Assembly (NCBI RefSeq): GCF_040250305.1
Contig: NZ_CP158190.1
Location: 1,830,001 to 1,894,000, forward strand
Direction: 5' to 3'
Source: Peribacillus frigoritolerans
GTDB taxonomy: Bacteria > Bacillota > Bacilli > Bacillales > DSM-1321
Length of the DNA: 64,000 nucleotides
Below are positions 10,766 through 63,588 of this stretch, piece after piece. Position 1 is the stretch's first letter, and each line of letters starts with the position of its first letter. The notes beneath the pieces were generated by a model, which was not told the origin of the DNA, ran no database searches, and saw only the letters and a program-made list of their open reading frames with translations. The translations under genes were made by a program, and so were the position numbers.

Positions 10766-11992
10766 TTGATTAAGAAATACACGTGTCAAAATGGAGTTCG
10801 AATTGTATTGGAAAATATTCCAACTGTACGCTCTGCAGCAATTGGAGTTTGGATCAAAACAGGTTCAAGAAATGAAACACCGGAATTGAATGGGGTTTCA
10901 CATTTCTTGGAGCATATGTTCTTCAAAGGGACAACTACGAGAAATGCGCGTGAAATTGCCGAGTCATTCGATAGTATTGGCGGACAGGTGAATGCATTCA
11001 CTTCAAAAGAGTATACATGCTATTATGCTAAAGTAATGGATAACCATGCAAGCTATGCGCTTGAAATCCTTGCTGATATGTTCTTCAACTCAACATTTGA
11101 TGGGGAAGAATTGAAAAAAGAAAAAAATGTCGTCTACGAAGAAATCAAAATGTACGAAGACACACCAGATGACATTGTCCATGACCTCTTAAGCAAGGCG
11201 GTATATGAAAATCATCCCCTTGGCTATCCGATACTTGGCACGGAAAATACGCTTGAAACGTTCAATAGTGATACATTAAAAAAATACGTCCATGACATGT
11301 ATACACCCGATAAAGTAGTTGTATCCATTGCTGGGAATGTAGATGAAAAAATGATTAAGGAAGTCGAAAGCTACTTTGGCTCGTATCAAGGAGGGGAAGA
11401 TCGTCTTGAATTGGTCAAGCCTTCCTTCCATGAAAATAGGATCACCCGTAAAAAAGATACGGAACAAGCCCACTTATGCCTTGGTTACAAAGGGTTGGAA
11501 ATTGGCAATGATAAAACATACAGCCTGATTACCTTGAATAATATTCTTGGAGGAAGCATGAGCAGCCGCCTATTCCAGGACGTCAGGGAGCAACGAGGCC
11601 TTGCCTATTCCGTTTATTCCTATCATTCCAGCTATCAAGATAGCGGTATGGTGACAGTATATGGGGGGACAGGCACAAATCAGCTTGACAGCCTGTATGA
11701 AACCATTCAGGAAACACTGGATACTTTAAAGAGGGATGGCATTACGGAAAAGGAATTACGGAATAGTAAAGAGCAACTTAAAGGCAGCTTGATGCTTAGC
11801 CTTGAAAGCACGAATAGCCGCATGAGCCGGAACGGAAAAAATGAGCTGATGTTGGGTGAGCACCGTTCCCTTGATGATATCATCATCAAGATTGACGCGG
11901 TGACGGAGGATACCGTCAATGAATTGGCAAACCAGATCTTTACGGAACATTCCTTGTCATTAGTGAGCCCGCTGGAAAACTGGGATAAATAA
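10766..11992 (+). CDS. mlpA: M16-family zinc protease MlpA (YmxG)
   Basis: A 408-residue single-unit M16 peptidase like mitochondrial processing peptidase beta. The inverted zinc motif HFLEH is at about residues 46-50, with the downstream glutamate region KKEKNVVYEEIKMYEDTP. The start is TTG after TGGGAGGAATG. In B. subtilis the orthologue influences extracellular protease gene expression. It lies downstream of ylxY and before ylmC, matching Bacillus order. Confidence 0.93.
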   Translation: MIKKYTCQNGVRIVLENIPTVRSAAIGVWIKTGSRNETPELNGVSHFLEHMFFKGTTTRNAREIAESFDSIGGQVNAFTSKEYTCYYAKVMDNHASYALEILADMFFNSTFDGEELKKEKNVVYEEIKMYEDTPDDIVHDLLSKAVYENHPLGYPILGTENTLETFNSDTLKKYVHDMYTPDKVVVSIAGNVDEKMIKEVESYFGSYQGGEDRLELVKPSFHENRITRKKDTEQAHLCLGYKGLEIGNDKTYSLITLNNILGGSMSSRLFQDVREQRGLAYSVYSYHSSYQDSGMVTVYGGTGTNQLDSLYETIQETLDTLKRDGITEKELRNSKEQLKGSLMLSLESTNSRMSRNGKNELMLGEHRSLDDIIIKIDAVTEDTVNELANQIFTEHSLSLVSPLENWDK

Positions 11993-53609: not shown

Positions 53610-55550
53610 ATGGGGAAAATCATACAGCTCGACGAGGCTTTATCTAATAAAATCGCAGCTGGCGAAGTTGTTGAACGCCCAGCCTCAGTGGTTAAGGAAC
53701 TTGTGGAAAACGCAATAGATGCAAACAGTACCATTATAGAGATTGAATTGGTGGAGGCTGGACTTGGTTCCATTAGGATCGTGGATAATGGCGATGGGAT
53801 TTTGGCTGATGACATAGAAGCGGCATTTAAACGTCACGCCACAAGTAAAATAAAAGATGAAAATGACCTCTTCCGAATCCGAACACTCGGCTTCCGCGGT
53901 GAAGCAATGCCCAGTATTGCTTCAGTTTCCCGTTTTGAAATGAAAAGCAGCACTGGCGAAGGTGTAGGAACGCGCATACTTCTTGAAGGCGGCATGGTTA
54001 AGGAACTTGAGGCTTCATCCAGCCGTAAAGGAACGGATATCCTTGTTTCCGACTTGTTTTACAATACTCCTGCAAGGTTGAAATATATGAAAACCATTCA
54101 TACCGAGCTAGGAAATATTACGGATGTGGCTAACAGGCTCGCACTTTCGCACCCGGATGTTTCTATACGGTTAACACACAATGAGAAGCGTATTCTGCAT
54201 ACGAATGGTAACGGCGATGTCAGGCAGGTGCTAGCCGCAATTTATGGGACGAATATTGCCAAAAAGATGATTCCGGTTCAGGCAAGCTCATTGGACTTCA
54301 AATTATCCGGATATATCGTCATGCCCGAAGTCACACGGGCTTCAAGAAATTATATTTCAACCATGATAAACGGCCGCTTCATTAAAAACTATGCGCTCGT
54401 GAAAGCAATCCTGGATGGTTACCATACACTTCTACCAATTGGGCGTTTTCCAATTGCTTTGTTGAATATTGAAATGGACCCGATTCTTGTCGATGTCAAT
54501 GTACATCCGTCCAAAATGGAGGTAAGGCTCAGCAAGGAACAGGAATTGTTCAGTCTTGTATCGGAAACGATCAAATCTTCGTTTAAAAAGATGTCTCTAA
54601 TTCCAAGTGGATATACACCTGCAGCAAAGCCGGAACAGGTGAAAAGTGAACAAACTACGCTGGAATTGGACCATGTTGTGGAAAGCGGCAAGCGGGTTCT
54701 TGAAGAAGCCAAGAAAGAAGCTTCACTCTTGAAGGATACCTTGATTCGTGAAAAGCAGGAACAAAAGAGTTATGTGGATCATAATGAAGATTTCGACTTT
54801 GAACCAGTAAAGGAAATAATCTATAGCAATGAACAGCAGCAAATGGAAGATGTCTATGTACCGGTCTTACAAGATGATGAAAGCAAACCATATTTCGAGT
54901 CAGCCGAAAAGTATACAACCTACACTGTCGAACAAGAGGAAGAAATCGAAGCGAATGAACCTGCTAACCGCATCCCTCCCATGTACCCGATTGGGCAAAT
55001 GCATGGAACATATATTTTCGCCCAAAACGAAAAAGGTTTATATATCATAGACCAACATGCTGCCCAGGAACGGATCAAATACGAGTATTTTAAAGAGAAG
55101 GTCGGACGTGTTGAAAACGAGCTACAAGACATGCTGGTTCCCATCACCCTTGAATTTTCAACAGACCAATGTATCCGGATAAATGAATATCGGCATGAGT
55201 TGGAAAAAGTCGGCGTCTATTTAGAGGAGTTTGGCTACAACGCCTATATTGTCCGATCGCATCCACAATGGTTCCCTAAAGGAATTGAACAGGAAATCCT
55301 TGAAGAAATGATTGAACAATTGCTCTCGATGAAAAAGGTCGACATCAAAAAATTGCGCGAAGAAGCAGCTATCATGATGAGCTGTAAAGCCTCCATAAAG
55401 GCAAACCGTCATCTGCGCAATGATGAAATCCAAGCACTATTGGATGAACTAAGGCGCACAACCGATCCCTTCACATGCCCTCATGGAAGACCTATCATCA
55501 TCTCTTATTCCATTTATGAAATGGAGAAAATGTTCAAGCGGATCATGTAA
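53610..55550 (+). CDS. mutL: DNA mismatch repair protein MutL
   Basis: GHKL ATPase and nicking endonuclease of mismatch repair. The N-terminal ATPase has ENAIDAN near residue 34, DNGDGI near 60 and [10 protein letters not shown] near 96 (most homologues have Leu instead of Met). The C-terminal endonuclease carries [12 protein letters not shown] near residue 481, the DQHAx2Ex4E metal site, as in non-methyl-directed systems. 646 residues. It lies 23 bp after mutS, in one operon. Confidence 0.97.
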
Positions 55551-55553
55551 TTA

Positions 55554-55600
55554 AAAGCAATGGAGGACCCTTATGTAATAGGGTCCTTCATTGCTTTTTT
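55554..55600 (+). terminator. Terminator after mutL
   Basis: AAGCAATGGAGGACCC/GGGTCCTTCATTGCTT stem with loop TTATGTAATA, followed by TTTT. It marks the end of the conserved core block. Confidence 0.93.
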
Positions 55601-55634
55601 AGTTAAATGACCACATTTATTGGTCCAAGGACTT

Positions 55635-55860
55635 TTATCCTGGGGCTTTTGAAAAGTTTTCAGCTGAAGAGTCCTGTATATTATGTGTAACATGACTTTA
55701 TGTATCTAGGGTTATAGAAACTTTTGAATGTCCTAATCTTTCTGATCCCACTTTAGCATTTTCTCCGATCTCCAACATTATAGTTGCATGTGTATGGCGT
55801 AAATCGTGAAATCGTCTGAGAACAAGCTGGGTAAACCAGTCATTAAAGAAATTTAAGAGT
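55635..55860 (-). pseudogene. Tyrosine recombinase (phage-type integrase) C-terminal remnant
   Basis: Read on the minus strand, this stretch gives NDWFTQLVLRRFHDLRHTHA, then TIMLEIGENAKVGSERLGHS and KVSITLDT, then TAA at 55698-55700, then SHVTHNIQDSSAENFSKAPG and a final stop. HDLRHTHA (HxLRH) and SERLGHS are core motifs of phage integrases, and the stop occupies exactly the position of the catalytic tyrosine in the usual DTYSH. The N-terminal domains are absent. It is therefore a dead fragment of an integrase, marking past insertion next to mutL. Confidence 0.85.
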
Positions 55861-55918
55861 GAGCTAATGCCTGCTCTTTTTTATTAGAAGGGTATGTTAA
55901 GAATGTTGTTGATTTCCT

Positions 55919-55947
55919 TGATGAACTAACGGGGCAGGTTAGTGGTA
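55919..55947 (+). repeat. Accessory-region repeat, right half only (copy A)
   Basis: GAACTAACGGGGCAGGTTAG matches the right hairpin of the repeat family described for the full copies at 59778, 60146, 60884 and 61721. A terminator-like AAGAGTGAGC/GCTC stem lies 30 bp upstream (about 55854-55882). Confidence 0.75.
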
Positions 55948-56021
55948 GAAGAAGGTAATCAGGTGTTAAGTAGAGAATAAGGTAGCAATAAATATAAAAT
56001 TAAATAACTGAGGCGAAAAGG

Positions 56022-56480
56022 ATGGCACATAATGGGATAGTTTTAGTAGTTAGTGTATCAATATTCAGAGATGATGAAGTCTTAATAATTAGAGAAAATA
56101 AACCAACTGCTATTGATAAGTGGAACTTTCCGAGTGGACGCATTGAATATGGTGAAGACATTCTCTATTCAGCTCGTAGGGAGGTAAAAGAGGAAACTGG
56201 CTTTGATGTAAAACTTAATGGTACAACGGGTGTATATAATTTTATCAGTAGTACAAACAATCAAGTTATTCTATTTCATTTTACTGGTGAGGTTAATGGT
56301 GGTTCATTAAATCTTGAAGAAGATGAAATTTTAGACAGTAGATGGATTAAGGTGAATGACCTTGTGAAATTTGATAATGAAGAACTACGTGAACCAAGGG
56401 TACTAAAGCAAATAATAGATAACTTATTAAAAGAGAGGGTACATTCAATTAGTATTTATAATGAACAACTAGATAAATAA
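56022..56480 (+). CDS. NUDIX hydrolase
   Basis: A 152-residue NUDIX protein. The Nudix box GX5EX7REUXEEXGU is perfect: GRIEYGE near residue 39 followed by REVKEETGF. Such enzymes cleave nucleoside diphosphates linked to another group; the substrate here cannot be told. AACTGAGGCGAAAAGG precedes the ATG. It is AT-rich compared with the core genes upstream, is flanked by repeat copies A and B, and belongs to the accessory array. Confidence 0.9.
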   Translation: MAHNGIVLVVSVSIFRDDEVLIIRENKPTAIDKWNFPSGRIEYGEDILYSARREVKEETGFDVKLNGTTGVYNFISSTNNQVILFHFTGEVNGGSLNLEEDEILDSRWIKVNDLVKFDNEELREPRVLKQIIDNLLKERVHSISIYNEQLDK

Positions 56481-56485
56481 TTTTT

Positions 56486-56560
56486 ATTAAGCTAACAGCT
56501 TCTTTATCAGGAGCTGATCAGCAGCTCCTTTTCTTATGGCACTAAAGGGGCAGCATTCCT
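56486..56560 (+). repeat. Accessory-region repeat, divergent copy (B)
   Basis: Left part TTAAGCTAAC, then GGAGCTG/CAGCTCC terminator-like stem followed by TTTTC, then TATGGCACTAAAGGGGCAG. The stem is kept although its bases differ from the AGCTGCC/GGCAGCT stem of other copies. Confidence 0.75.
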
Positions 56561-56599
56561 GTATTAACTGAAATACTAAAAAGATTGTGAAGAAATCTA

Positions 56600-56632
56600 C
56601 TTAAACTAACGGGTGCTTTACTTCATTAAGAA
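56600..56632 (+). repeat. Accessory-region repeat, left half (copy C)
   Basis: ACTTAAACTAACGGGTGCTT followed by TACTTCATTAAG matches the left end of the repeat family. It lies 25 bp before the start of the small membrane gene. Confidence 0.7.
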
Positions 56633-56656
56633 ATAGTAAAATGGAAGAGGTTTTGT

Positions 56657-56776
56657 ATGAGAATTAATGAGAATGAGAAAAAGAATTTATGGAAATCTTT
56701 AATAAATAATGGGTTCTTGAGTGCCCTTTTTGTTATGTTAATAGGAATTATAGTTTTGATTTATGTACTAATCTAA
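56657..56776 (+). CDS. Small single-pass membrane protein (39 aa)
   Basis: Reads MRINENEKKNLWKSLINNGF and then a hydrophobic helix LSALFVMLIGIIVLIYVLI, ending in TAA. A charged N-terminus and one C-terminal membrane helix are visible. GGAAGAGGTTTTGT supplies an RBS, which supports translation. It sits between repeat C and a terminator. No family recognised; it could be a small regulator or a toxin-like peptide, but nothing shows this. Confidence 0.55.
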   Translation: MRINENEKKNLWKSLINNGFLSALFVMLIGIIVLIYVLI

Positions 56777-56794
56777 TTTACTTGTTCAACGTGT

Positions 56795-56826
56795 GGCTTT
56801 ACTTCAATATAGAGTAAAGCCTTTTT
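56795..56826 (+). terminator. Terminator after the 39-aa gene (degenerate repeat copy)
   Basis: GGCTTTAC/GTAAAGCC around TTCAATATAGA, followed by TTTTTC. The surrounding AACGTGTGGCTTTACTTCAA resembles the left end of the repeat, suggesting a diverged copy. Confidence 0.8.
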
Positions 56827-56883
56827 CTTATTCAATGAGCAAATCTCTTCTATTAAACAAAACCAGCTAAGTTTGTGATTTAA

Positions 56884-56914
56884 TACACTTAAACTAACGG
56901 GTGCGTTTCTTTAA
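56884..56914 (+). repeat. Accessory-region repeat, left half (copy D)
   Basis: ACACTTAAACTAACGGGTGC followed by GTTTCTT matches the left end of the repeat family. Confidence 0.7.
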
Positions 56915-57110
56915 AAAGGAATGCTCTTTTCGTATCCAATTAAAAGGAAGTAAATGTTATTATTATATTAAAGATGGTTGCTCTTCTATTATAGGTGGAG
57001 AAAGCTTTAATACGATATATACTACAATATTAACTTTGGAGGCACACCACTGCAATAAGACTTATAACGAAATTAAGTTCTTGATATATCCCGTAAAGGA
57101 CATATTATGA
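56901..57110 (+). CDS. Hypothetical 69-residue protein, doubtful
   Basis: An open frame whose GTG start lies inside repeat copy D (the GTG of GGGTGCG). It reads RFFKKECSFRIQLKGSKCYY and ends NEIKFLIYPVKDIL. No clear RBS precedes it and no family is recognised. It may be a degraded gene whose true start was replaced when the repeat was inserted. It ends 30 bp before the AlkD-like gene. Confidence 0.3.
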   Translation: MRFFKKECSFRIQLKGSKCYYYIKDGCSSIIGGESFNTIYTTILTLEAHHCNKTYNEIKFLIYPVKDIL

Positions 57111-57140
57111 AACAGTGCTTTAATAAAGGAGTTGTATAAA

Positions 57141-57809
57141 ATGAATGAAAATAAAGGTACAGAAATAAAACGCTTTTCAAAAGCAGAAAACATTCTACCT
57201 CAGATCAATAGTAAAACTAAGCTAGGCGACTTACGAAAAATCGCGAAGGACATTAAAAAAGATCACGAACTAGCTATGGAACTTTGGTCAACCGAAGAGT
57301 TTTTGCCCAGACTATTAGCAATCTTAATTATGGACAAAAAACTTCTTTCACAAGATGTGCTAAATAAGCTTGATAAGGATATGCAGACTCACACTTTTGA
57401 TGAGCGAAATAACTTAATGGATTGGTTAATGGCTAATCAGCTCACCAAAGACAAGAAGAAAATTGCATTGATGGAGTCATGGGAAAATAGTCCTTCTGCT
57501 CTTCAAAGGCGAGCTTTCTGGTATTATCAAGGGCGATTGAGATGGACTGGACAAACACCGCCTGATAACACCGCATACTTGCTATCTGCATTAGAAGCTA
57601 ATATTACGCAGGAAGAACCGGAAGTTCAATGGGCTATGAATTTCACCGCAGGCTGGATAGGCGTTTATGATGAAAAGAATCGTGCACGTTGTATTAAACT
57701 TGGTGAGAAAACGGGTCTTTACAAAGATGAAATAGTAGCAAAAGGATGTACTCCCAGCTATTTGCCGGAGTTCATTACAATTGAAGTTAACAAACGACAT
57801 AATAATTAG
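57141..57809 (+). CDS. DNA alkylation repair protein (AlkD-like)
   Basis: A 222-residue all-helical protein. RKIAKDIKKDHELAMELWST and the WENSPSALQRRAFWYYQGRL segment fit the HEAT-repeat DNA alkylation repair (AlkD/AlkC) family, which excises alkylated bases. The ATG at 57141 is chosen because AAAGGAG lies 9 bases upstream; a TTG nine bases earlier has no spacing. The gene lies within the repeat-separated array, and repeat E follows it. Confidence 0.78.
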   Translation: MNENKGTEIKRFSKAENILPQINSKTKLGDLRKIAKDIKKDHELAMELWSTEEFLPRLLAILIMDKKLLSQDVLNKLDKDMQTHTFDERNNLMDWLMANQLTKDKKKIALMESWENSPSALQRRAFWYYQGRLRWTGQTPPDNTAYLLSALEANITQEEPEVQWAMNFTAGWIGVYDEKNRARCIKLGEKTGLYKDEIVAKGCTPSYLPEFITIEVNKRHNN

Positions 57810-57887
57810 TTATCTCTGAAAAATTTATTAGGGTTTAATGCAAAAAATAAAGGAATTCAAAGCCTCAATATGAAAATTGTAATAGGC

Positions 57888-57942
57888 TTGGACGATCAGA
57901 GCTGTCTTTTAGGCAGCTTTTTCTTTATGGAACTAACGGGGC
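57888..57942 (+). repeat. Accessory-region repeat, middle and right part (copy E)
   Basis: GATCAGAGCTGTC TTTT AGGCAGCT stem with TTTTTC, then TTTATGGAACTAACGGGGC. The right hairpin is interrupted: the sequence runs directly into a long palindrome that shares its GGGG. Confidence 0.8.
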
Positions 57943-57990
57943 TGTTCCAAAAATCGATAATTGATCGATTTTTGGAGCAGCCTCTTTTTT
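57940..57990. terminator. Long palindromic terminator, 19-bp stem
   Basis: GGCTGTTCCAAAAATCGAT pairs with ATCGATTTTTGGAGCAGCC (one G-U) around AATTG, followed by TCTTTTTT. It lies between the AlkD-like gene and the convergent XRE gene and probably ends transcription from the left. Confidence 0.88.
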
Positions 57991-58039
57991 GTAACGGTAG
58001 TTATTTTATCTTTTCATTCTTACATAGGAAGAGTGCTAT

Positions 58040-58600
58040 TTAAACTAGCGCTGGAGTTAGTACAAATAAAATATGATTTGTTTCATCACTCTTGTTCAAA
58101 AATCGATGTTTAATATTGGGTGGAATACGCACTACATCCCCTTCATCTAAAAAATATTCAGTGCCTTCCAATTCAACATACGATTGACCTTTCATGACTA
58201 CAGCAATTTCTTCTTTGTCGTCGTGTGAATAGTGGCTTTCCGTAGTGATTGCGTGTGCATTTAAATCCATCATTAAGAGTTCGATACGTGCTTTCATGAA
58301 ATCTGGCGTTAACACATCATAGACAATATGGTCGTTATTTTCACGATACACCTTCTTCCGATCTTTTTTTCTAGAAATGAGTGAATCGGTATCAATATCG
58401 TTAATGAAAAGCGTAAACAATGGTACATTTAATGCTTTTGCAATCAATTCTAGTACACTTAGCGAAGGGTTTGCTTGTCCTCTTTCAATTTGGCTAATAA
58501 GCGAAGTGCTGATTCCTGCATAATCGGCAAATTCACGAATTGTCATATCGTTTTTCTTACGATAACTTAATACTGTTTGACCAAGGCGATAATTAATCAT
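58040..58600 (-). CDS. XRE-family regulator with cupin domain
   Basis: A 186-residue HTH-cupin regulator on the minus strand. HTH at about 6-60 (DMTIREFADYAGISTSLISQ, then IERGQANPSL); cupin at about 105-180 (HYSHDDKEEIAVVMKGQSYV, GDVVRIPPNIKHRFLN). The start at 58600 (INYRLGQTVL) is chosen because GAAAGGAGTC precedes it; a longer frame lacks an RBS. It is divergent from a DMT-type exporter gene 168 bp away and probably regulates it, which is inference from layout. Confidence 0.88.
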   Translation of the reverse strand: MINYRLGQTVLSYRKKNDMTIREFADYAGISTSLISQIERGQANPSLSVLELIAKALNVPLFTLFINDIDTDSLISRKKDRKKVYRENNDHIVYDVLTPDFMKARIELLMMDLNAHAITTESHYSHDDKEEIAVVMKGQSYVELEGTEYFLDEGDVVRIPPNIKHRFLNKSDETNHILFVLTPALV

Positions 58601-58767
58601 GGTAAAGACTCCTTTCCACAATAATGTATATTTCATTCCTTTTGTGCTGACATACTGAACATAAGTAATTAGTACTTTCTTAAATTACATAAAAATTTTA
58701 TACTTACGTTTGTACATTATATTATATAAATTTCAATATTATAAACAAGGAATCGGAGGATATAAAA

Positions 58768-59649
58768 TTGCAATCATCAATTATTTCTTATGTAATTTTA
58801 TTTTTTGGCGTATTTGCATTATCAACTTCAGCAATCTTTGTAAAGTTAGCAGATGCACCTGCGACAATCACGGCGTTCTATCGGCTGTTTTTTGCAACAA
58901 TAATGCTTTTGCCATTTTTATTAATAAATAAAAGGAATCGACATGAATTATATTCATTGTCAAAAAAACAATGGGGACTCGGACTATTATCAGGCTTATT
59001 TTTAGCAGTTCATTATGTATTATGGTTTGAATCATTAAATTACACTTCTGTAGCAAGTTCGACGGTTATCGTTACATTGCAGCCACTTTTTTCGATGGTC
59101 GGTGGATATTTTCTATTTAAAGAGAGATTCAGTAAAGGTGCTGTAATAGGTTGTCTTGTAGCGATTGCCGGAAGTATCGTTATTGGATGGCAAGATTTTC
59201 AAATTAGTGGACAAGCTTTATTTGGTGATATACTAGCCTTTATTGCAGCGGGGGTTATTACAGCCTATTTCTTTGTAGGCCAGCATGTTCGTAAAAAGCT
59301 ATCTCTTATTCCATATTCAGTTATCGGTTATGCCAGCAGTGCACTATTTTTGTGTATTTTTGCGTTCAGCCAGCAAACTTCTTTCGTTGATTATTCCACA
59401 CAAACATGGTTGTCCTTTATTGGATTAGCGTTTATTGCAACGATATTAGGGCAAACGATTTTTAATTGGCTGTTGAAATGGCTAAGTACTTCAGTTATTT
59501 CAATGAGCATATTAGGAGAGACGATTGGAACCTGTATACTCGCTTATTTTATTTTGGATGAGGTTATTTCTTTACAACAAGGTATGGGTATCGCACTCAT
59601 CTTAATCGGTTTAGCATTATTTTTACTACAGCAAAGAAATAACGAATAA
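58768..59649 (+). CDS. DMT-superfamily transporter (EamA domain)
   Basis: A 293-residue membrane protein with about ten hydrophobic helices in two EamA repeats (about 5-140 and 150-290; e.g. FALSTSAIFVKLADAPATIT and SVISMSILGETIGTCILAYF). Family members export amino acids, nucleosides or other metabolites; substrate unknown. TTG start after ATCGGAGGATATAAAA. Divergent from the XRE-cupin gene. Confidence 0.88.
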   Translation: MQSSIISYVILFFGVFALSTSAIFVKLADAPATITAFYRLFFATIMLLPFLLINKRNRHELYSLSKKQWGLGLLSGLFLAVHYVLWFESLNYTSVASSTVIVTLQPLFSMVGGYFLFKERFSKGAVIGCLVAIAGSIVIGWQDFQISGQALFGDILAFIAAGVITAYFFVGQHVRKKLSLIPYSVIGYASSALFLCIFAFSQQTSFVDYSTQTWLSFIGLAFIATILGQTIFNWLLKWLSTSVISMSILGETIGTCILAYFILDEVISLQQGMGIALILIGLALFLLQQRNNE

Positions 59650-59737
59650 ATAATAGAGATTAATTGGCGGTACGAGAAAGAATAGATTTAATTGAAGAAC
59701 AATTATAAGAAGAATATCTTTTAAAATGACTTCCTTG

Positions 59738-59768
59738 TTCAATTAAAGGCGCGATTCTTGAAGAAGTT
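59738..59768 (+). repeat. Degenerate left-half repeat
   Basis: GTTCAATTAAAGGCGCGATT followed by CTTGAAGAAG resembles the left end of the repeat family (AACTAACGGGTGCGTTAGCT then GAAGATC) with many changes. Confidence 0.4.
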
Positions 59769-59777
59769 TCGCTTTTC

Positions 59778-59870
59778 TTAATGAACTAACACGGTGCGTT
59801 AGCTGAAGATCGGAGCTGCCTTTAAGGCAGCTTTTTCTTTATGCAACTATCGGGGCAGGATAGTTCAACA
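59778..59870 (+). repeat. Accessory-region repeat, full copy (F)
   Basis: Three hairpin parts in order: CTAAC...GTTAG around ACGGTGC; AGCTGCC/GGCAGCT around TTTAA followed by TTTTTC, a terminator; AACTATC/GATAGTT around GGGGCAG, followed by TCAACAAG. The next gene's RBS follows about 50 bp later. Confidence 0.88.
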
Positions 59871-59936
59871 AGGGAAATGGTTATTTGTGGTAAAGTATAA
59901 AAGGATAGTTGTTTAATTTATAGGGGGTTGTTTTAA

Positions 59937-60152
59937 GTGCAAGAAAACAAAGAAACTCCTGAACGAAAAAGAGAGAGATTAAGACAAGAAGAATTAAAAA
60001 GAAATCCGACTGGTAGTTTGAATGATGCTTTTAATAAAGCAAACAGTGGCGGTCTTGCTGATTTAGTAGGAAGTTTAGGTTGGAAAGGTACGGGAATTCT
60101 CATTCTTGTAATCATTATTGGCTTTATTTTTGTATCACTTTTCTTCAAGTAA
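59937..60152 (+). CDS. Small membrane protein, probable DUF6366 family
   Basis: 71 residues: a charged N-terminus (KETPERKRERLRQEELKRNP), a TGSLNDAFNKANSGGLADLV middle and one C-terminal membrane helix (GILILVIIIGFIFVSLF). I believe this is the DUF6366 family, of unknown function, from memory. GTG start after TAGGGGGTTG. Its stop codon TAA is supplied by the first bases of repeat copy G, so the repeat forms the end of the reading frame. Confidence 0.75.
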   Translation: MQENKETPERKRERLRQEELKRNPTGSLNDAFNKANSGGLADLVGSLGWKGTGILILVIIIGFIFVSLFFK

Positions 60153-60234
60153 CGGATGCGTTAGCTGAAGATCGGGGCTGTCTTTAAGGCAGCTCTTTTC
60201 TTATGGAACTAAAGGGGCAGGATAGTTCAATAAG
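60146..60234 (+). repeat. Accessory-region repeat, full copy (G)
   Basis: TAACGGATGCGTTAGCTGAA, GATCGGGGCTGTC/GGCAGCT stem with CTTTTC, then GGAACTAAAGGGGCAGGATA and GTTCAATAAG. It starts inside the preceding reading frame. Confidence 0.88.
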
Positions 60235-60306
60235 AAAAGGGAATTTTTTCTTGAGGTATAAAGGACGATTTTTGGTAAGATGTCTTTATGGAGAAGGGAT
60301 ATTACA

Positions 60307-60579
60307 ATGAAAATTTTAAAAAATAGAATAAAGCCTTTGTTTATTCCAGCGTTACTTTTATGGATAACAGCAGGAATTATCCACTTTGTTTCCACCTTGC
60401 ATTACGGTGTTTACAATGATTATCGGTCTATGGCATATATCTTCATAGTCATTGGATTGTCTTTAACATTAATTGAACGGTATTTACTAGAAAAGGCAAC
60501 AAAAAAGGAACTAATTGGGCTAGGTTTGACATTTCTACTAATCATTTCATCTCAATTGTGGGTTATATATTTTTTGTAA
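60307..60579 (+). CDS. Small multi-pass membrane protein (90 aa)
   Basis: A 90-residue protein with three predicted helices: LFIPALLLWITAGIIHFV, MAYIFIVIGLSLTLI and ELIGLGLTFLLIISSQLWVI. The ATG at 60307 follows GGAGAAGGGATATTAC. No family recognised. It lies between repeat copies G and H, one gene per interval. Confidence 0.7.
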   Translation: MKILKNRIKPLFIPALLLWITAGIIHFVSTLHYGVYNDYRSMAYIFIVIGLSLTLIERYLLEKATKKELIGLGLTFLLIISSQLWVIYFL

Positions 60580-60580
60580 T

Positions 60581-60662
60581 TGAACAAACGGATGCTTTAC
60601 CTCAATATCAGGAGCCAATTAGCTGCTCTTTTTTTTATGGACTAAAGAGGCAGAATAATTGA
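60581..60662 (+). repeat. Accessory-region repeat, divergent copy (H)
   Basis: TGAACAAACGGATGCTTTAC, a GGAGC/GCTGCTC stem with eight T, then TATGGACTAAAGAGGCAGAA. The layout matches full copies though the bases have drifted. Confidence 0.75.
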
Positions 60663-60696
60663 GGATGTATTTTAGAGGAATATAATTGGAGTAATT

Positions 60697-60726
60697 ATGA
60701 AGATAAAAAGAGGATACAAAAGATGA
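60697..60726 (+). CDS. Possible 9-codon leader peptide
   Basis: TTGGAG is followed by ATG and the frame MKIKRGYKR, whose TGA overlaps the ATG of the next small gene (ATGA). This could couple translation to the downstream gene. Chance occurrence is possible because of its length. Confidence 0.25.
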   Translation: MKIKRGYKR

Positions 60727-60860
60727 AAAAGAAAGGCAAAGAAGGTTTTTTCAAAAGCATAATTAATGAAATTCGTGATTCCATCTTATCTGAATTGGTT
60801 TTTAACATCTTAACTCTTATTCCAAGAATGATAATTCGTTTAGTAAAGAGTTTATTTTAA
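60723..60860 (+). CDS. Small basic amphipathic protein (45 aa)
   Basis: MKKKGKEGFFKSIINEIRDS followed by a hydrophobic/amphipathic stretch ILSELVFNILTLIPRMIIRL and VKSLF. GAGG lies about 10 bases upstream of the ATG. No family recognised. The single gene between repeat copies H and I. A membrane-active peptide is conceivable from composition, but nothing proves it. Confidence 0.5.
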   Translation: MKKKGKEGFFKSIINEIRDSILSELVFNILTLIPRMIIRLVKSLF

Positions 60861-60883
60861 TTGATTAAGTCGGAAGTACTTCT

Positions 60884-60978
60884 TAATGAACTAACGGGTG
60901 CGTTAGCTGAAAGATCTGAGCTGTCTTTAAGGCAGCTTTTTCTTATGGTACTAACGGGGCAGGTTAGTTCATTAAAGA
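60884..60978 (+). repeat. Accessory-region repeat, full copy (I)
   Basis: CTAACGGGTGCGTTAG (perfect 5-bp stem), GAGCTGTC/GGCAGCT stem with TTTTTC, then ACTAACGGGGCAGGTTAGT (6-bp stem). Compared with copy F, the last stem shows a T-A to A-T exchange on both arms. Confidence 0.9.
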
Positions 60979-61080
60979 AATGTACATTGGCATATTTTCC
61001 TTACATAAGTAAGGAAGGATTTCTGTTAGGATGATTATCGGAACGTAATTATATGTTGAATATAGGAACGAGGATAATGT

Positions 61081-61404
61081 ATGAATGAAACAAAAGAAGT
61101 TTTGCCATTAAGGAAATCTTATTGGAGTATTTTATCACTGGTTTGTGTTTTATTAGGAATTCTATTCTGGTTTATATTCTTTTTGGTTCCTAGTCAAAAT
61201 ATAGGTCTTGACCAAGGGATTCCTATTTGGGCTTGGACTTTTATTATGAATCCAATTGGTATCATCTTGGCTAGGATAGGTTCAAAATACAATAATAAAT
61301 TTTCTTTGTTTGGGATTGCAGGGAATCTATTTATGACATTTAGCATATTTTTTGCTTGGTATATTGGTTATCTAGTTGAATGGCTGTCCTCCCTTATTCA
61401 TTAA
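61081..61404 (+). CDS. Multi-pass membrane protein (107 aa), unknown
   Basis: Three hydrophobic helices: YWSILSLVCVLLGILFWFIF, IWAWTFIMNPIGIILARIG and LFGIAGNLFMTFSIFFAWYI. ATG after GAACGAGGATAATGT. No family recognised. Upstream (about 61000-61019) lies a small inverted repeat CCTTACATAAGTAAGG that could be an operator. Confidence 0.7.
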   Translation: MNETKEVLPLRKSYWSILSLVCVLLGILFWFIFFLVPSQNIGLDQGIPIWAWTFIMNPIGIILARIGSKYNNKFSLFGIAGNLFMTFSIFFAWYIGYLVEWLSSLIH

Positions 61405-61485
61405 AAATTTTCTAATTAGAGTTAAACCATAATGGTTTGGAAAAAACGTATAAAAGAAAGGAATTTTAAGCTAGGTGGGATTAGA

Positions 61486-61713
61486 GTGGTTAAAGACTTT
61501 TTTGGTTCTATATTTGCAACTATATTTGGTATTATCGCAACCTGGACTGGTTTGATCTATACGACTCGTTATCGGTTTGATAATAGAAAATTTTTTGAAC
61601 ACATCAAATATATAACGCCCTTACCTCTAACATTTAATTATTGGCTTCTTAAAGTTTTATTTATTTTTGGAGGATTAATGTGTGTTGTTTTGGGTCTATA
61701 CGAAATTCTTTAA
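61486..61713 (+). CDS. Two-pass membrane protein (about 75 aa), unknown
   Basis: Begins VKDFFGSIFATIFGIIATWT and has a second helix WLLKVLFIFGGLMCVVLGLY. GTG at 61486 is favoured because TAGGTGGG lies 8 bases upstream; the frame is open from an ATG at 61432, which lacks an RBS and would give 93 residues. Shares the I-J interval with the 107-aa gene, so this interval holds two genes. Confidence 0.6.
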   Translation: MVKDFFGSIFATIFGIIATWTGLIYTTRYRFDNRKFFEHIKYITPLPLTFNYWLLKVLFIFGGLMCVVLGLYEIL

Positions 61714-61720
61714 GGTATTC

Positions 61721-61816
61721 CTTAATGAACTAACGGGGGCGTTATCTGTAGATCGGTGCTGTCTTTAAGGCAGCTTTTTCTTTATGCAACTAACGGGGCA
61801 GGATAGTTGAACAAGA
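61721..61816 (+). repeat. Accessory-region repeat, full copy (J)
   Basis: TTAATGAACTAACGGGGGCG, TGCTGTC/GGCAGC stem with TTTTTC, then CAACTAACGGGGCAGGATAG and TTGAACAAG. Confidence 0.9.
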
Positions 61817-61865
61817 AAATGTGATAAAATATGTAAGTAACTTATTTACTTTAAAGGGTGAAAAC

Positions 61866-62237
61866 ATGGAGAATATCTTAAAACAACTATCTGATATTAA
61901 AAAGGAATTGGAAAAGCCGTTTCCATATAGAGATATGGACAAAATACAAGAAGATTTTCGAACAGAGTTTTGTAATTTATCAGTTGAAGAGGACTGTCTA
62001 ACAGGTGATTTTAATACTTACTGTATGAATATAGCAGGAACTCTAAGTTATATTTTAGTAGGTAAATTGAATGAAATCCCTCAAGGTCAGATTGAAATGA
62101 TACATCTTTCCTTCTTTGATTTATTTAAAAAGTATAGATTTTTTGAAGACAAAATAGGGAACTTTAACGATTTTTCACAAGAATATAAAAACTATGAAGA
62201 GACAAGGGAATTATTATTACAGTTGCTATGTAAATAA
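61866..62237 (+). CDS. YxiJ-like family protein
   Basis: A 123-residue soluble protein (MENILKQLSDIKKELEKPFP; DFNTYCMNIAGTLSYILVGK; LSFFDLFKKYRFFED). I believe it is the YxiJ-like family, named after a B. subtilis gene in the wapA contact-toxin locus; from memory, moderate confidence. Function unknown; an immunity role is possible by association only. ATG after TTTAAAGGGTGAAAAC. Lies between repeat copies J and K. Confidence 0.65.
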   Translation: MENILKQLSDIKKELEKPFPYRDMDKIQEDFRTEFCNLSVEEDCLTGDFNTYCMNIAGTLSYILVGKLNEIPQGQIEMIHLSFFDLFKKYRFFEDKIGNFNDFSQEYKNYEETRELLLQLLCK

Positions 62238-62245
62238 ACATTCCT

Positions 62246-62300
62246 TATTAAGCTAAAGGGTGCGTTAGCTGAAGATCGAAGCTGTCTTTATGGCTGGAAC
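62246..62300 (+). repeat. Accessory-region repeat, truncated copy (K)
   Basis: TTATTAAGCTAAAGGGTGCG, then TTAGCTGAAGATCGAAGCTG and TCTTTATGGCTGGAACTAAC. The copy breaks off inside the terminator stem and is joined to a second, altered end (AACTAACCGTGCGTTCG). Confidence 0.8.
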
Positions 62301-62320
62301 TAACCGTGCGTTCGTATTAT

Positions 62321-62354
62321 AAGGTTAGCCAGTTTTTACTGGTTGGCCTTTTTT
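62321..62354 (+). terminator. Terminator at the end of the array
   Basis: AAGG...CCAGT/ACTGG...CCTT stem around TTTT, followed by TTTTTT. Confidence 0.82.
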
Positions 62355-62380
62355 AAATAGAACCGTTATATAATTAGCCA

Positions 62381-62578
62381 GGGGAGGACGTACGGGTGCG
62401 TGGGGCTTGATCCCGTGAACTAAACTGTCCGCCCCCTACTTGTAGAAACAAGTTTGAGGCTGGTTGGGATGCAGATCTCACGTAGTGGTTTTTTATCTCT
62501 GAAACCACTCGTATGCCGCAATGGCAGCTGACAATCTGGATCCTTTTTAAAATCTGAATTAGGAACAGGGAAGCTGCC
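62381..62578. ncRNA. Highly structured non-coding block, possible mobile-element RNA
   Basis: Within 200 nt lie four stems: GGGGAGGAC/GTCCGCCCC (62381-62435) enclosing ACGGG/CCCGT; ACTTGT/ACAAGT around AGAA (62438-62453); AGTGGTTT/AAACCACT (62484-62509); GGCAGCT/AGCTGCC (62523-62578). No coding signal fits. Such a chain of stems with open loops resembles structured RNAs of mobile elements, for example the non-coding end of IS110-type elements. Strand and class are not determined. Confidence 0.4.
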
Positions 62579-62703
62579 ACTTTGTATGAACTTTGTTTCC
62601 TTCGAATGTAAGTAAGCTTTGATAATAATGTTCAACTTCCAACACCTCAATGACACATTAAACGAAATTATTTTATTCTTCCTTATCGAAAATATAATCT
62701 AGG

Positions 62704-63588
62704 TTACCCCTCTATTTTATTAATTAGTTCCTCCTCTTCACTCAACAAATTTATAAATTTTTCTAAGGATGCAGGTACATACTTATCTTTTCGATAAATG
62801 AAAACTGTCCTAACTTTTCCATTCGGAATTGAGTGTTGTCGAATGATTCCTTCTTGTACCTGTTTTGAAACAACACTTTGCGGAAGCATACTTATACCTA
62901 GACCAGCTGCTACACAACCGATGATCCCATCTATAGTGCCAAATTCCATTATCTTATTGGGTATCATCTTCTCTTGTTGTAGCCATAGTTCAAACTTTTC
63001 CCGATAAGCACATCCTGCATGAAATACAAGCAGCGTCCTTGTTTGAATATCTTTGATAGAAGATATAGGAGGATGAACTGTATCTGTAATGAGCATTAGT
63101 TCTTCTTCGAATACTTCTTTCTGAATGAGATCTGGATGATTAATGGGTCCAGCCACAAATGCTCCATCAAGTTCATTCTGAAGGACTGCTTGAATATTTT
63201 GTTCAGTGGAGCCTGTTTTTAAAGTTAAATCAACCTCTGGAAAATCTTTGTGATACTTTGAAAACAAGACTGGTAAGCGAACTGCTGCGGTTGTTTCCAT
63301 TGAACCAATAATTAACGGACCTCTGGGTGTTTGATCATCATTCATCATATTTTTGGTCTCTTCTATAAGATCGAATATTTTTTCTGTATATGTTAGCAAC
63401 ATGCTTCCTTTGTCAGTTAATGCAGTGCCACGATTATGTCTATAAAAAAGAGTTGTTTGAAGATCCGATTCCAACTGCTGTATTTTCATCGTGATATTTG
63501 ACTGTGCATATTGAAGTTCTCTTGCTGCTTGAGAAATGCTTCCCATCTTAGCAACACTGTGGAAAATTTTTAATGAGTGCAAATCCAA
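62704..63588 (-). CDS. LysR family transcriptional regulator
   Basis: A 294-residue LysR protein on the minus strand: winged HTH at 1-about 60 (MDLHSLKIFHSVAKMGSISQ, then AARELQYAQSNITMKIQQLE) and a substrate-binding domain from about 88 (RGPLIIGSMETTAAVRLPVL). Divergent from a tautomerase gene, as in the yrdQ-yrdN pair of B. subtilis, so it probably controls that gene; this is inference. AAGGAGAGATTATTTTGG precedes the start on its strand. Confidence 0.92.
   Translation of the reverse strand: MDLHSLKIFHSVAKMGSISQAARELQYAQSNITMKIQQLESDLQTTLFYRHNRGTALTDKGSMLLTYTEKIFDLIEETKNMMNDDQTPRGPLIIGSMETTAAVRLPVLFSKYHKDFPEVDLTLKTGSTEQNIQAVLQNELDGAFVAGPINHPDLIQKEVFEEELMLITDTVHPPISSIKDIQTRTLLVFHAGCAYREKFELWLQQEKMIPNKIMEFGTIDGIIGCVAAGLGISMLPQSVVSKQVQEGIIRQHSIPNGKVRTVFIYRKDKYVPASLEKFINLLSEEEELINKIEG

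Follow-up and report, generated by a model that had tools for sequence, protein, structure and literature searches.

Integrons, which are known mainly from Gram-negative bacteria, hold co-oriented arrays of mostly one-gene units with short imperfect-palindrome sites (attC) between them, and the boxes of these sites follow the consensus RYYYAAC/GTTRRRY. In the dif (pdif) modules of Acinetobacter, genes lie between short core sites that are double-stranded and have a spacer of 6 bp; the passages on their layout in two reports describe two module types that alternate (PMC13141974, PMC12907356) and, in one of them, multi-module islands on the chromosome and on plasmids (PMC12907356). Those parts of the integron literature that bear on Firmicutes place the phylum among those with integrons (PMC8618304) and report a single complete integron (Limnochorda pilosa) and a few clusters of attC sites lacking an integron integrase (CALIN), integrons being extremely rare there (PMC9024848), which raises the question of how these bacteria gather small accessory genes. 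Here we analyzed a 64,000-nt stretch of Peribacillus frigoritolerans (the window; NZ_CP158190.1, 1,830,001-1,894,000 of a single-contig genome of 5.60 Mb, designated G000), in which short genes and copies of one repeat element lie between mutL and a lysR gene. The original prediction, made from the letters of the window, took each gene plus repeat as a cassette-like unit. We consider it probable that the element belongs to a cassette system that resembles integrons but is independent of them; its paired sites would keep genes alternating with terminators, and a Xer-like tyrosine recombinase, INT-3, is the likely enzyme. The window block is best explained as a small outpost of this genome-wide system.

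The Peribacillus system resembles integrons in the array layout given above, in a content that varies among close strains, in the linkage of a tyrosine recombinase in relatives and in the attC-like single-strand fold of its element. Some relatives of IS110-type elements target attC, and the IS110-type insertions at the Peribacillus sites recall them. It differs from integrons in that INT-3 is Xer-like and not IntI, no attI was identified, and the consensus boxes AACTAAC and GTTAGTT/GTTAGCT miss the attC consensus. Each element also has two core sites, its terminator-like linker is often exchanged separately, and the site is not bound to the upstream gene. With dif modules the Peribacillus system shares gene modules between short core sites of the kind described above and multi-module arrays on chromosome and plasmids, and its two module types may alternate likewise; unlike the Peribacillus sites, which are direct repeats, theirs are inversely oriented XerC/XerD sites and the modules can invert. 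The near-palindromic Peribacillus arms and the spacers GGGTGC and GGGGCAG do not follow the 11-6-11 pattern of dif; moreover, of the two Peribacillus module types one is a terminator, and the recombinase linked to the arrays is a separate Xer-like enzyme. For both integrons and dif modules, there are defining features that the system failed when tested. Many intergenic palindromic copies are also typical of bcr1 of Bacillus and of REP elements, although we know of no bcr1- or REP-type repeat that bounds exchangeable genes in co-oriented arrays with a recombinase.

Searches of open-licence papers, which included ones aimed at dif modules and bcr1, listed no description of this system. The system looks like a separately evolved Gram-positive counterpart of integrons. 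We lean slightly toward a broader claim, that it represents a third independent class of cassette platform, widespread in Bacillaceae, in which a dedicated Xer-like integrase would act on two orthogonal direct sites, the spacers would force genes and terminators to alternate and genes would arrive insulated. If this is true, superintegron-scale arrays exist on chromosomes and plasmids of Gram-positive bacteria. A cassette array of 150 kb, linked to a recombinase other than IntI, would directly answer the question of gene gathering in Firmicutes, would show that such arrays arose from Xer-like enzymes on more than one occasion, and would yield a large unread pool of small genes together with a pair of recombination sites usable as a tool.

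The element and its co-oriented arrays

The repeat of about 92 nt described in the original prediction is real, although it is composed of two core sites around a terminator. Alignment of 39 full copies gave the consensus TTCTTATTGAACTAACGGGTGCGTTAGCTGAAGATCGGAGCTGTCTTTAAGGCAGCTTTTTCTTATGGAACTAACGGGGCAGGTTAGTTNAATAAGAAA (joined by hand, with one undecided base given as N), in which the core sites L and R stand as a direct repeat with a terminator linker of about 53 nt between them. The L core site has an arm of about 13 bp ending in CTAAC, the spacer GGGTGC and an arm starting with GTTAG; the R core site has an arm of about 16 bp ending in CTAAC, the spacer GGGGCAG and an arm starting with GTTAG. 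The 440 linkers analyzed fall into at least four sequence families; 378 of them have a stem of at least 7 pairs, and 341 have at least 6 T in the 11 nt at and after the stem end.

A profile search over six fetched stretches of G000 found 147 element copies (147, 143 or 141, depending on the nhmmer model and database), with uniform orientation within each stretch. The main array spans about 150 kb at 791-943 kb (+ strand, 105 copies), and the other copies are at 3.28-3.32 Mb (-, 19 copies), near 2.71 Mb (-, 6), near 3.14 Mb (-, 6), in a pair at 1.43 Mb (+, 2) and in the window array between mutL and lysR (+, 9). The block first noticed in the window exists, but it is a small part of this set. 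In a search of the whole genome, the best 40 of 175 candidates formed six clusters of at least two copies each, so among the candidates scored the repeats are not scattered singly, which agrees with the original prediction.

Across 59 stretches of this and related genomes (2.13 Mb), 799 of 801 elements lie in the majority orientation of their stretch; most of these stretches were picked for holding elements, and the co-orientation counts are not those of a random sample. When the same stretches were oriented by their elements, 823 of the 828 core sites with the listed spacers were on the element strand. Neighboring core sites were L-R in 228 cases (median 60 nt), R-L in 213 (median 818 nt), R-R in 195 and L-L in 56 (none less than 120 nt apart); the strict site pattern misses diverged L sites. 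Of 346 modules, 295 had their dominant open reading frame (ORF) on the element strand and 17 had it on the opposite strand, while 28 were ambiguous and 6 had none, compared with 64, 107, 75 and 100, respectively, in letter-shuffled modules.

BLAST detected the element in 25 of 41 genomes, this one included, and in 2 of 17 genera: 24 of these genomes belong to the genus itself, and one weak match lies outside it. The plasmid collection contained the element in 16 records (10 Peribacillus, 4 Cytobacillus, 1 Metabacillus and 1 Mesobacillus), and a search of the phage collection gave no match. Among 84 ORFs of the main array, no Pfam family was matched more than three times, and four defence models were matched by one member each.

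Module exchange and its junctions

The arrays and the site-bounded exchange of their modules are well supported. For the counts of module pairs, 798 elements and 411 modules were used, with site positions taken from gapless box matching and with elements or modules of poor boxes or extreme length dropped beforehand. This gave 84 pairs of homologous gene modules, 2 of them within one genome. With neighbors called different below 60% identity in 60-nt flanks, both neighbors differed in 72 pairs, only the left was shared in 3, only the right in 4 and both in none, and 5 pairs were intermediate.

Alignments of homologous modules, read by eye, show abrupt switches of identity, and the linker type switches at L. 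In 42 independent pairs, all between genomes, there was hardly any excess identity immediately before the R spacer (z 0.9) or within it (z 0.5); the excess rose right after the spacer (z 3.8, then 6.7 and 22.4), stood at z 24.7 and 13.8 before the L site and was z 4.2, 2.9 and 2.2 across it; these scores treat alignment positions as independent. Shared identity starts at the R spacer and then either fades across the L site or continues to the next R. Among the 22 pairs with module identity of at least 95%, the downstream linker was of the same type in 13 and of a different type in 9, and the upstream linker was of the same type in 5, where about 8.4 are expected by chance in each case. Genes and downstream linkers therefore travel together above chance, which points to exchange between R sites, and linkers are also replaced, which points to exchange at L. 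The proposed unit of gene plus repeat thus stands insofar as genes tend to travel with the downstream linker; it falls short in that each repeat has two sites and linkers swap independently.

Gene content at this position varies, in line with the original prediction. In G050, a genome of the same species, the 9 kb fetched downstream of mutL are free of elements, as are the stretches taken at 10 of the 13 other mutL loci, G050 included; in G041, G004 and G017, elements lie 2.6 to about 20 kb from mutL. Among the G000 arrays fetched, a counterpart was present for 18 of the 56 modules of G050 examined. The differences follow module boundaries, and most junctions fall in or beside site spacers: shared blocks in the same-species comparison run from R to R and from R to L, a 2.9-kb insertion has both ends within about 40 nt of R sites, and one plasmid carries a 549-nt duplication from R to R at 97.8% identity. 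For the 11-kb plasmid NZ_CP128117, no close cassette-less relative was present among the matches listed, so no empty site was obtained; its cytidine deaminase module matches that of another plasmid over short stretches only.

In the mechanism that we propose, a gene module would begin with the right arm of R and end with the left arm of L, and a linker module would begin with the right arm of L and end with the left arm of R. INT-3, the presumed catalyst, would pair two L or two R sites and exchange strands within the spacer, mostly R × R and sometimes L × L, and pairs of gene and linker would be excised and inserted in circular form. Direct repeats at every site would prevent the inversion of modules and keep arrays co-oriented, and because the L and R spacers differ and are presumably orthogonal, genes and terminators would keep alternating.

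INT-3 and the competing explanations

INT-3 is a 279-aa Xer-like tyrosine recombinase whose gene lies between two elements on a P. simplex plasmid contig. In an alignment of four sequences, its catalytic-type residues R, HxxR, H and Y, which we take to have catalytic roles, are invariant, and its profile matches the XerD structure 1a0p (E 6.9e-36). Against NCBIfam it scored 203 bits with XerD and 201 with XerA, XerC being next best, all under the cut-offs of the models listed. In the P. simplex group (12 distinct loci, some with broken genes, sites read by eye), the site about 40 nt past the INT-3 stop is of R type in 11 and of L type in 1, and an L site lies upstream in 9. A survey that took a single genome for each species yielded 313 stretches with 189 relatives among them, of which 78 loci, spread over many genera of Bacillaceae, were kept; at least one element lies within 8 kb in 53 of them and at least three in 36. 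An opposite-strand L site follows the INT-3 stop by about 42 nt in 26 of 75 loci (3.3% in random windows of the same loci), an R site precedes the start by about 92 nt in 14 of 75 (2.7% in random windows), any site within four mismatches is present in 40 and a matching pair on both sides in 18. The INT-3 gene is often in linker position, between L and R, in either orientation.

No distinct attI was identified at these loci, where INT-3 is flanked by ordinary L or R sites if any are seen. Locus L053 has, at about 10897-10912 (- strand), a solo L site whose inverted arms match perfectly over 13 bp, TTAATGAACTAAC-GGGTGC-GTTAGTTCATTAA; locus L052 has a close variant with similar downstream sequence. 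The L053 site could be a candidate primary attachment site.

Several observations weigh against INT-3 as the enzyme and against a strictly site-bounded mechanism. INT-3 was matched at E<=1e-40 in 19 of 36 genomes of the genus, counting fragments and one 35%-identical protein, and not in the other 17, which include the array-rich genomes G000, G050, G041, G001, G013 and G017, for which another enzyme or lost plasmids must be invoked. Only a 37-residue remnant of INT-3 is present in the main array of G000, so the window array is now probably immobile or mobilised in trans. The main difficulty is that neither G000 nor G050 has an intact INT-3 although the two differ widely; lost plasmids, decay after activity or another enzyme could each account for this. 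Under the present model, no element was found at 25 of the 78 INT-3 loci, and in 35 of 75 the gene is without a flanking site within four mismatches. INT-2, a 55%-identical relative of another recombinase, INT-1, has an element about 1-11 kb away in four of six loci (L098, L102, L104 and L110), and a small catalytic-domain tyrosine recombinase is present in an array stretch of the CK6 plasmid, with fragments in G006 and in the main array of G000. As for the junctions, several block ends in the same-species comparison lie inside modules, away from listed sites, and a small excess identity persists inside linkers of the 42 pairs (z 3.1 upstream and 4.1 downstream); linkers thus keep some association with genes, and exchange is not always cleanly site-bounded. 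No excised circles were seen. A single-strand route would be permitted by the attC-like hairpin on both strands of a full element.

That the sites work as described but are served by another catalyst, namely host XerC/XerD, INT-1, INT-2 or a small recombinase, is possible but doubtful. INT-1 (G000:C1:280585-281421), a fixed Xer-like enzyme found at E<=1e-40 in 31 of 36 genomes of the genus and 90-99% identical in 20 of these 31, is widely spread, also in genomes without INT-3; however, eight of its nine fetched loci (L094-L097, L105-L108 and L111) have no element at E<=0.1, and the ninth, L111, has only a fragment 9 kb away. INT-1 was rejected as the array integrase for this reason, and INT-2 because it is not flanked by sites as INT-3 is: its neighboring elements are those listed above, and loci L099-L101 have none. 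Both adjoin 5S/23S rRNA genes at the two loci tested with Rfam (L105 for INT-1, L102 for INT-2), and ORFs like those over the 23S gene of L102 make it likely that rRNA genes are also present on the array-bearing plasmid of L098. None of the 14 Phage_integrase matches in G000 lies between 620 kb and 1.42 Mb, so none was detected beside the main array. The small recombinase or its fragments were observed in the array stretches L051 and L050 (two plasmids) and at about 822.6 kb in the main array of G000. Its relatives inside array stretches favor this explanation, and the small catalytic-domain recombinases L031-L033 stay on the list of candidates; it is INT-3, however, that is embedded in arrays of many genera.

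An explanation without a dedicated enzyme, in which RecA would act by homologous recombination between ordinary multicopy terminators, is unlikely. The best 40 same-strand copies are mostly 85-94% identical to the element of the window over about 80-100 nt, the linker association is partly graded, some blocks end inside modules and G000 has no intact INT-3, all of which would suit RecA. Yet modules at least 95% identical up to their arms adjoin linkers that belong to other families and whose identity is often close to the 70% median of random pairs, so there is little homology for RecA to use there; identity switches near two spacers and not evenly over the linker; and strict co-orientation and the linkage of INT-3 are left unexplained. 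A true integron or CALIN, in which a folded single-strand attC is recombined at one box and the site stays with the upstream gene, is very unlikely. In its favor are the same anatomy (box-spacer-box, variable middle, box-spacer-box), about one gene per cassette and the greater frequency of R × R exchange. On either strand, the element at 60866-60994 folds as single-stranded DNA into a hairpin like that of attC, its spacers left unpaired (z -5.4 and -4.8), beating 200 of 200 dinucleotide shuffles on each, and two further elements, folded on one strand each, beat all 200 shuffles, one pairing its outer arms and the other forming local hairpins. We nevertheless dropped the attC reading as the main one because linkers often swap at L, which is not expected of attC, and the enzyme is not IntI: INT-3 scores 95 bits with the integron-integrase model TIGR02249 (cut-off 265), far below its XerD and XerA scores. 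The boxes, moreover, do not fit the consensus given above. Plain accretion of genes at a hotspot, the alternative offered in the original prediction, is hardly credible, also with the repeats taken as a miniature transposable element inserted by chance between genes. The location of arrays does vary among genomes, but the near-complete co-orientation (799 of 801) and the site-bounded transfer of single modules are not expected of accretion and contradict it.

Features of the window array

The co-oriented repeats seen between mutL, which ends at 55550, and lysR (62704-63588, - strand) were recovered by the profile search as nine copies at E<=1e-3. Further half or solo sites are at 55923-55942, which belongs to the first of these nine copies, and at 56601-56634 and 56889-56921. 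The full copies starting at 59782, 60145, 60887 and 61726 score E<=5.1e-24, and the remaining copies are diverged or partial. Pfam matches bear out the NUDIX, AlkD-like, DUF6366 and YxiJ cargo named earlier, and EamA and HTH/cupin genes are present as well. The near-uniform + strand also holds, the HTH/cupin gene at 58040-58603 being the sole exception.

At the left end, a C-terminal fragment of a phage-type tyrosine recombinase (55704-55814, - strand) lies 3' of mutL, with a PF00589 score of 26.5 bits (cut-off 27.1) and a match to recombinase L030. It was rejected as the integrase of the array because it belongs to another recombinase family. The block 55300-55814 also follows mutL in G041, G017 and G007, which suggests an older insertion hotspot at the mutL locus. 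The array begins with a solo R-type core site, GAACTAAC-GGGGCAG-GTTAG (55923-55942, +), followed by the NUDIX hydrolase module (55938-56490, +; gene 56022-56480). Blocks within about 55913-56553 are 95-97% identical in G017:C49, G048:C16 and G050:C20, the module itself being 97.7% identical in the last. Next come a diverged element with an L site, a terminator linker and the R left arm (56489-56556, +), a solo L-type site (CTAAC-GGGTGC-TTTAC; 56601-56634, +) and the gene of a 39-aa membrane protein without a Pfam match (56657-56776, +).

The L-type site at 56889-56921 (+) bounds the AlkD module, whose gene (57144-57809, +; PF08713) encodes an AlkD-like DNA alkylation repair protein. This module is 99-100% identical in G050, G048, G001 (in its 1.0-1.2 Mb array) and G049, and the blocks of 99-100% identity in four other genomes start at window position 56888-56892. 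After a partial element with a type-B terminator and the R left half (57892-57947, +), a two-gene module (58040-59649) holds an HTH/cupin regulator (58040-58603, -) and an EamA transporter (58768-59649, +); the block 57901-59699 is 97% identical in G048:C10.

The full element at 59782-59874 (+; L, type-B linker, R) precedes a module with a DUF6366 protein (59937-60152, +; Pfam E 1.5e-39), which is 98.9% identical in G041 with both neighbors different. Another full element (60145-60236, +) is followed by a small membrane protein (60310-60579, +), weakly DUF7144-like below the Pfam cut-off; this module is 97.0% identical in the P. simplex plasmid contig G006:C2, where the upstream neighbor is different, and 93.2% in G048. 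A diverged element (60581-60666, +), whose terminator is type-C-like when read by eye, and the gene of a 45-aa basic protein without a Pfam match (60723-60860, +) lead to the best full element (60887-60980, +), with the L spacer at 60896-60901, the linker and its terminator at 60902-60955 and the R spacer at 60956-60962. Its downstream module (61081-61713, +) encodes two small membrane proteins (61081-61404 and 61432-61713), and the block 60889-61416 is 94% identical in G017:C26. The full element at 61726-61817 (+) and the YxiJ-like protein at 61821-62237 (+; PF14176, E 8.6e-36) are followed by the truncated last element (62250-62311, +).

The right end of the block holds a feature missed in the original prediction, a truncated copy, at the last site, of a sequence that elsewhere forms the left end of IS110-type insertion sequences (62298-62479, +). 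This sequence of about 182 nt, repeated widely in related genomes, starts at the site spacer. An ORF of 376-425 aa with a common start motif comes after it in 9 of the 16 copies fetched, and a test of one such ORF showed it to be a transposase of the IS110 family (PF01548). The repeat was also considered as the end of a group II intron, which was rejected because IS110-type transposase ORFs follow other copies. The L and R sites seem to serve as targets for IS110-type elements. Rfam over 55500-62800 gave one match, a histone 3' stem-loop under the gathering score, which was taken as chance. Elsewhere, at L102:19618-19929, an element is broken after model position 56 and a group II intron match (RF02001) begins about 80 nt later, which suggests that introns also insert at these terminators.

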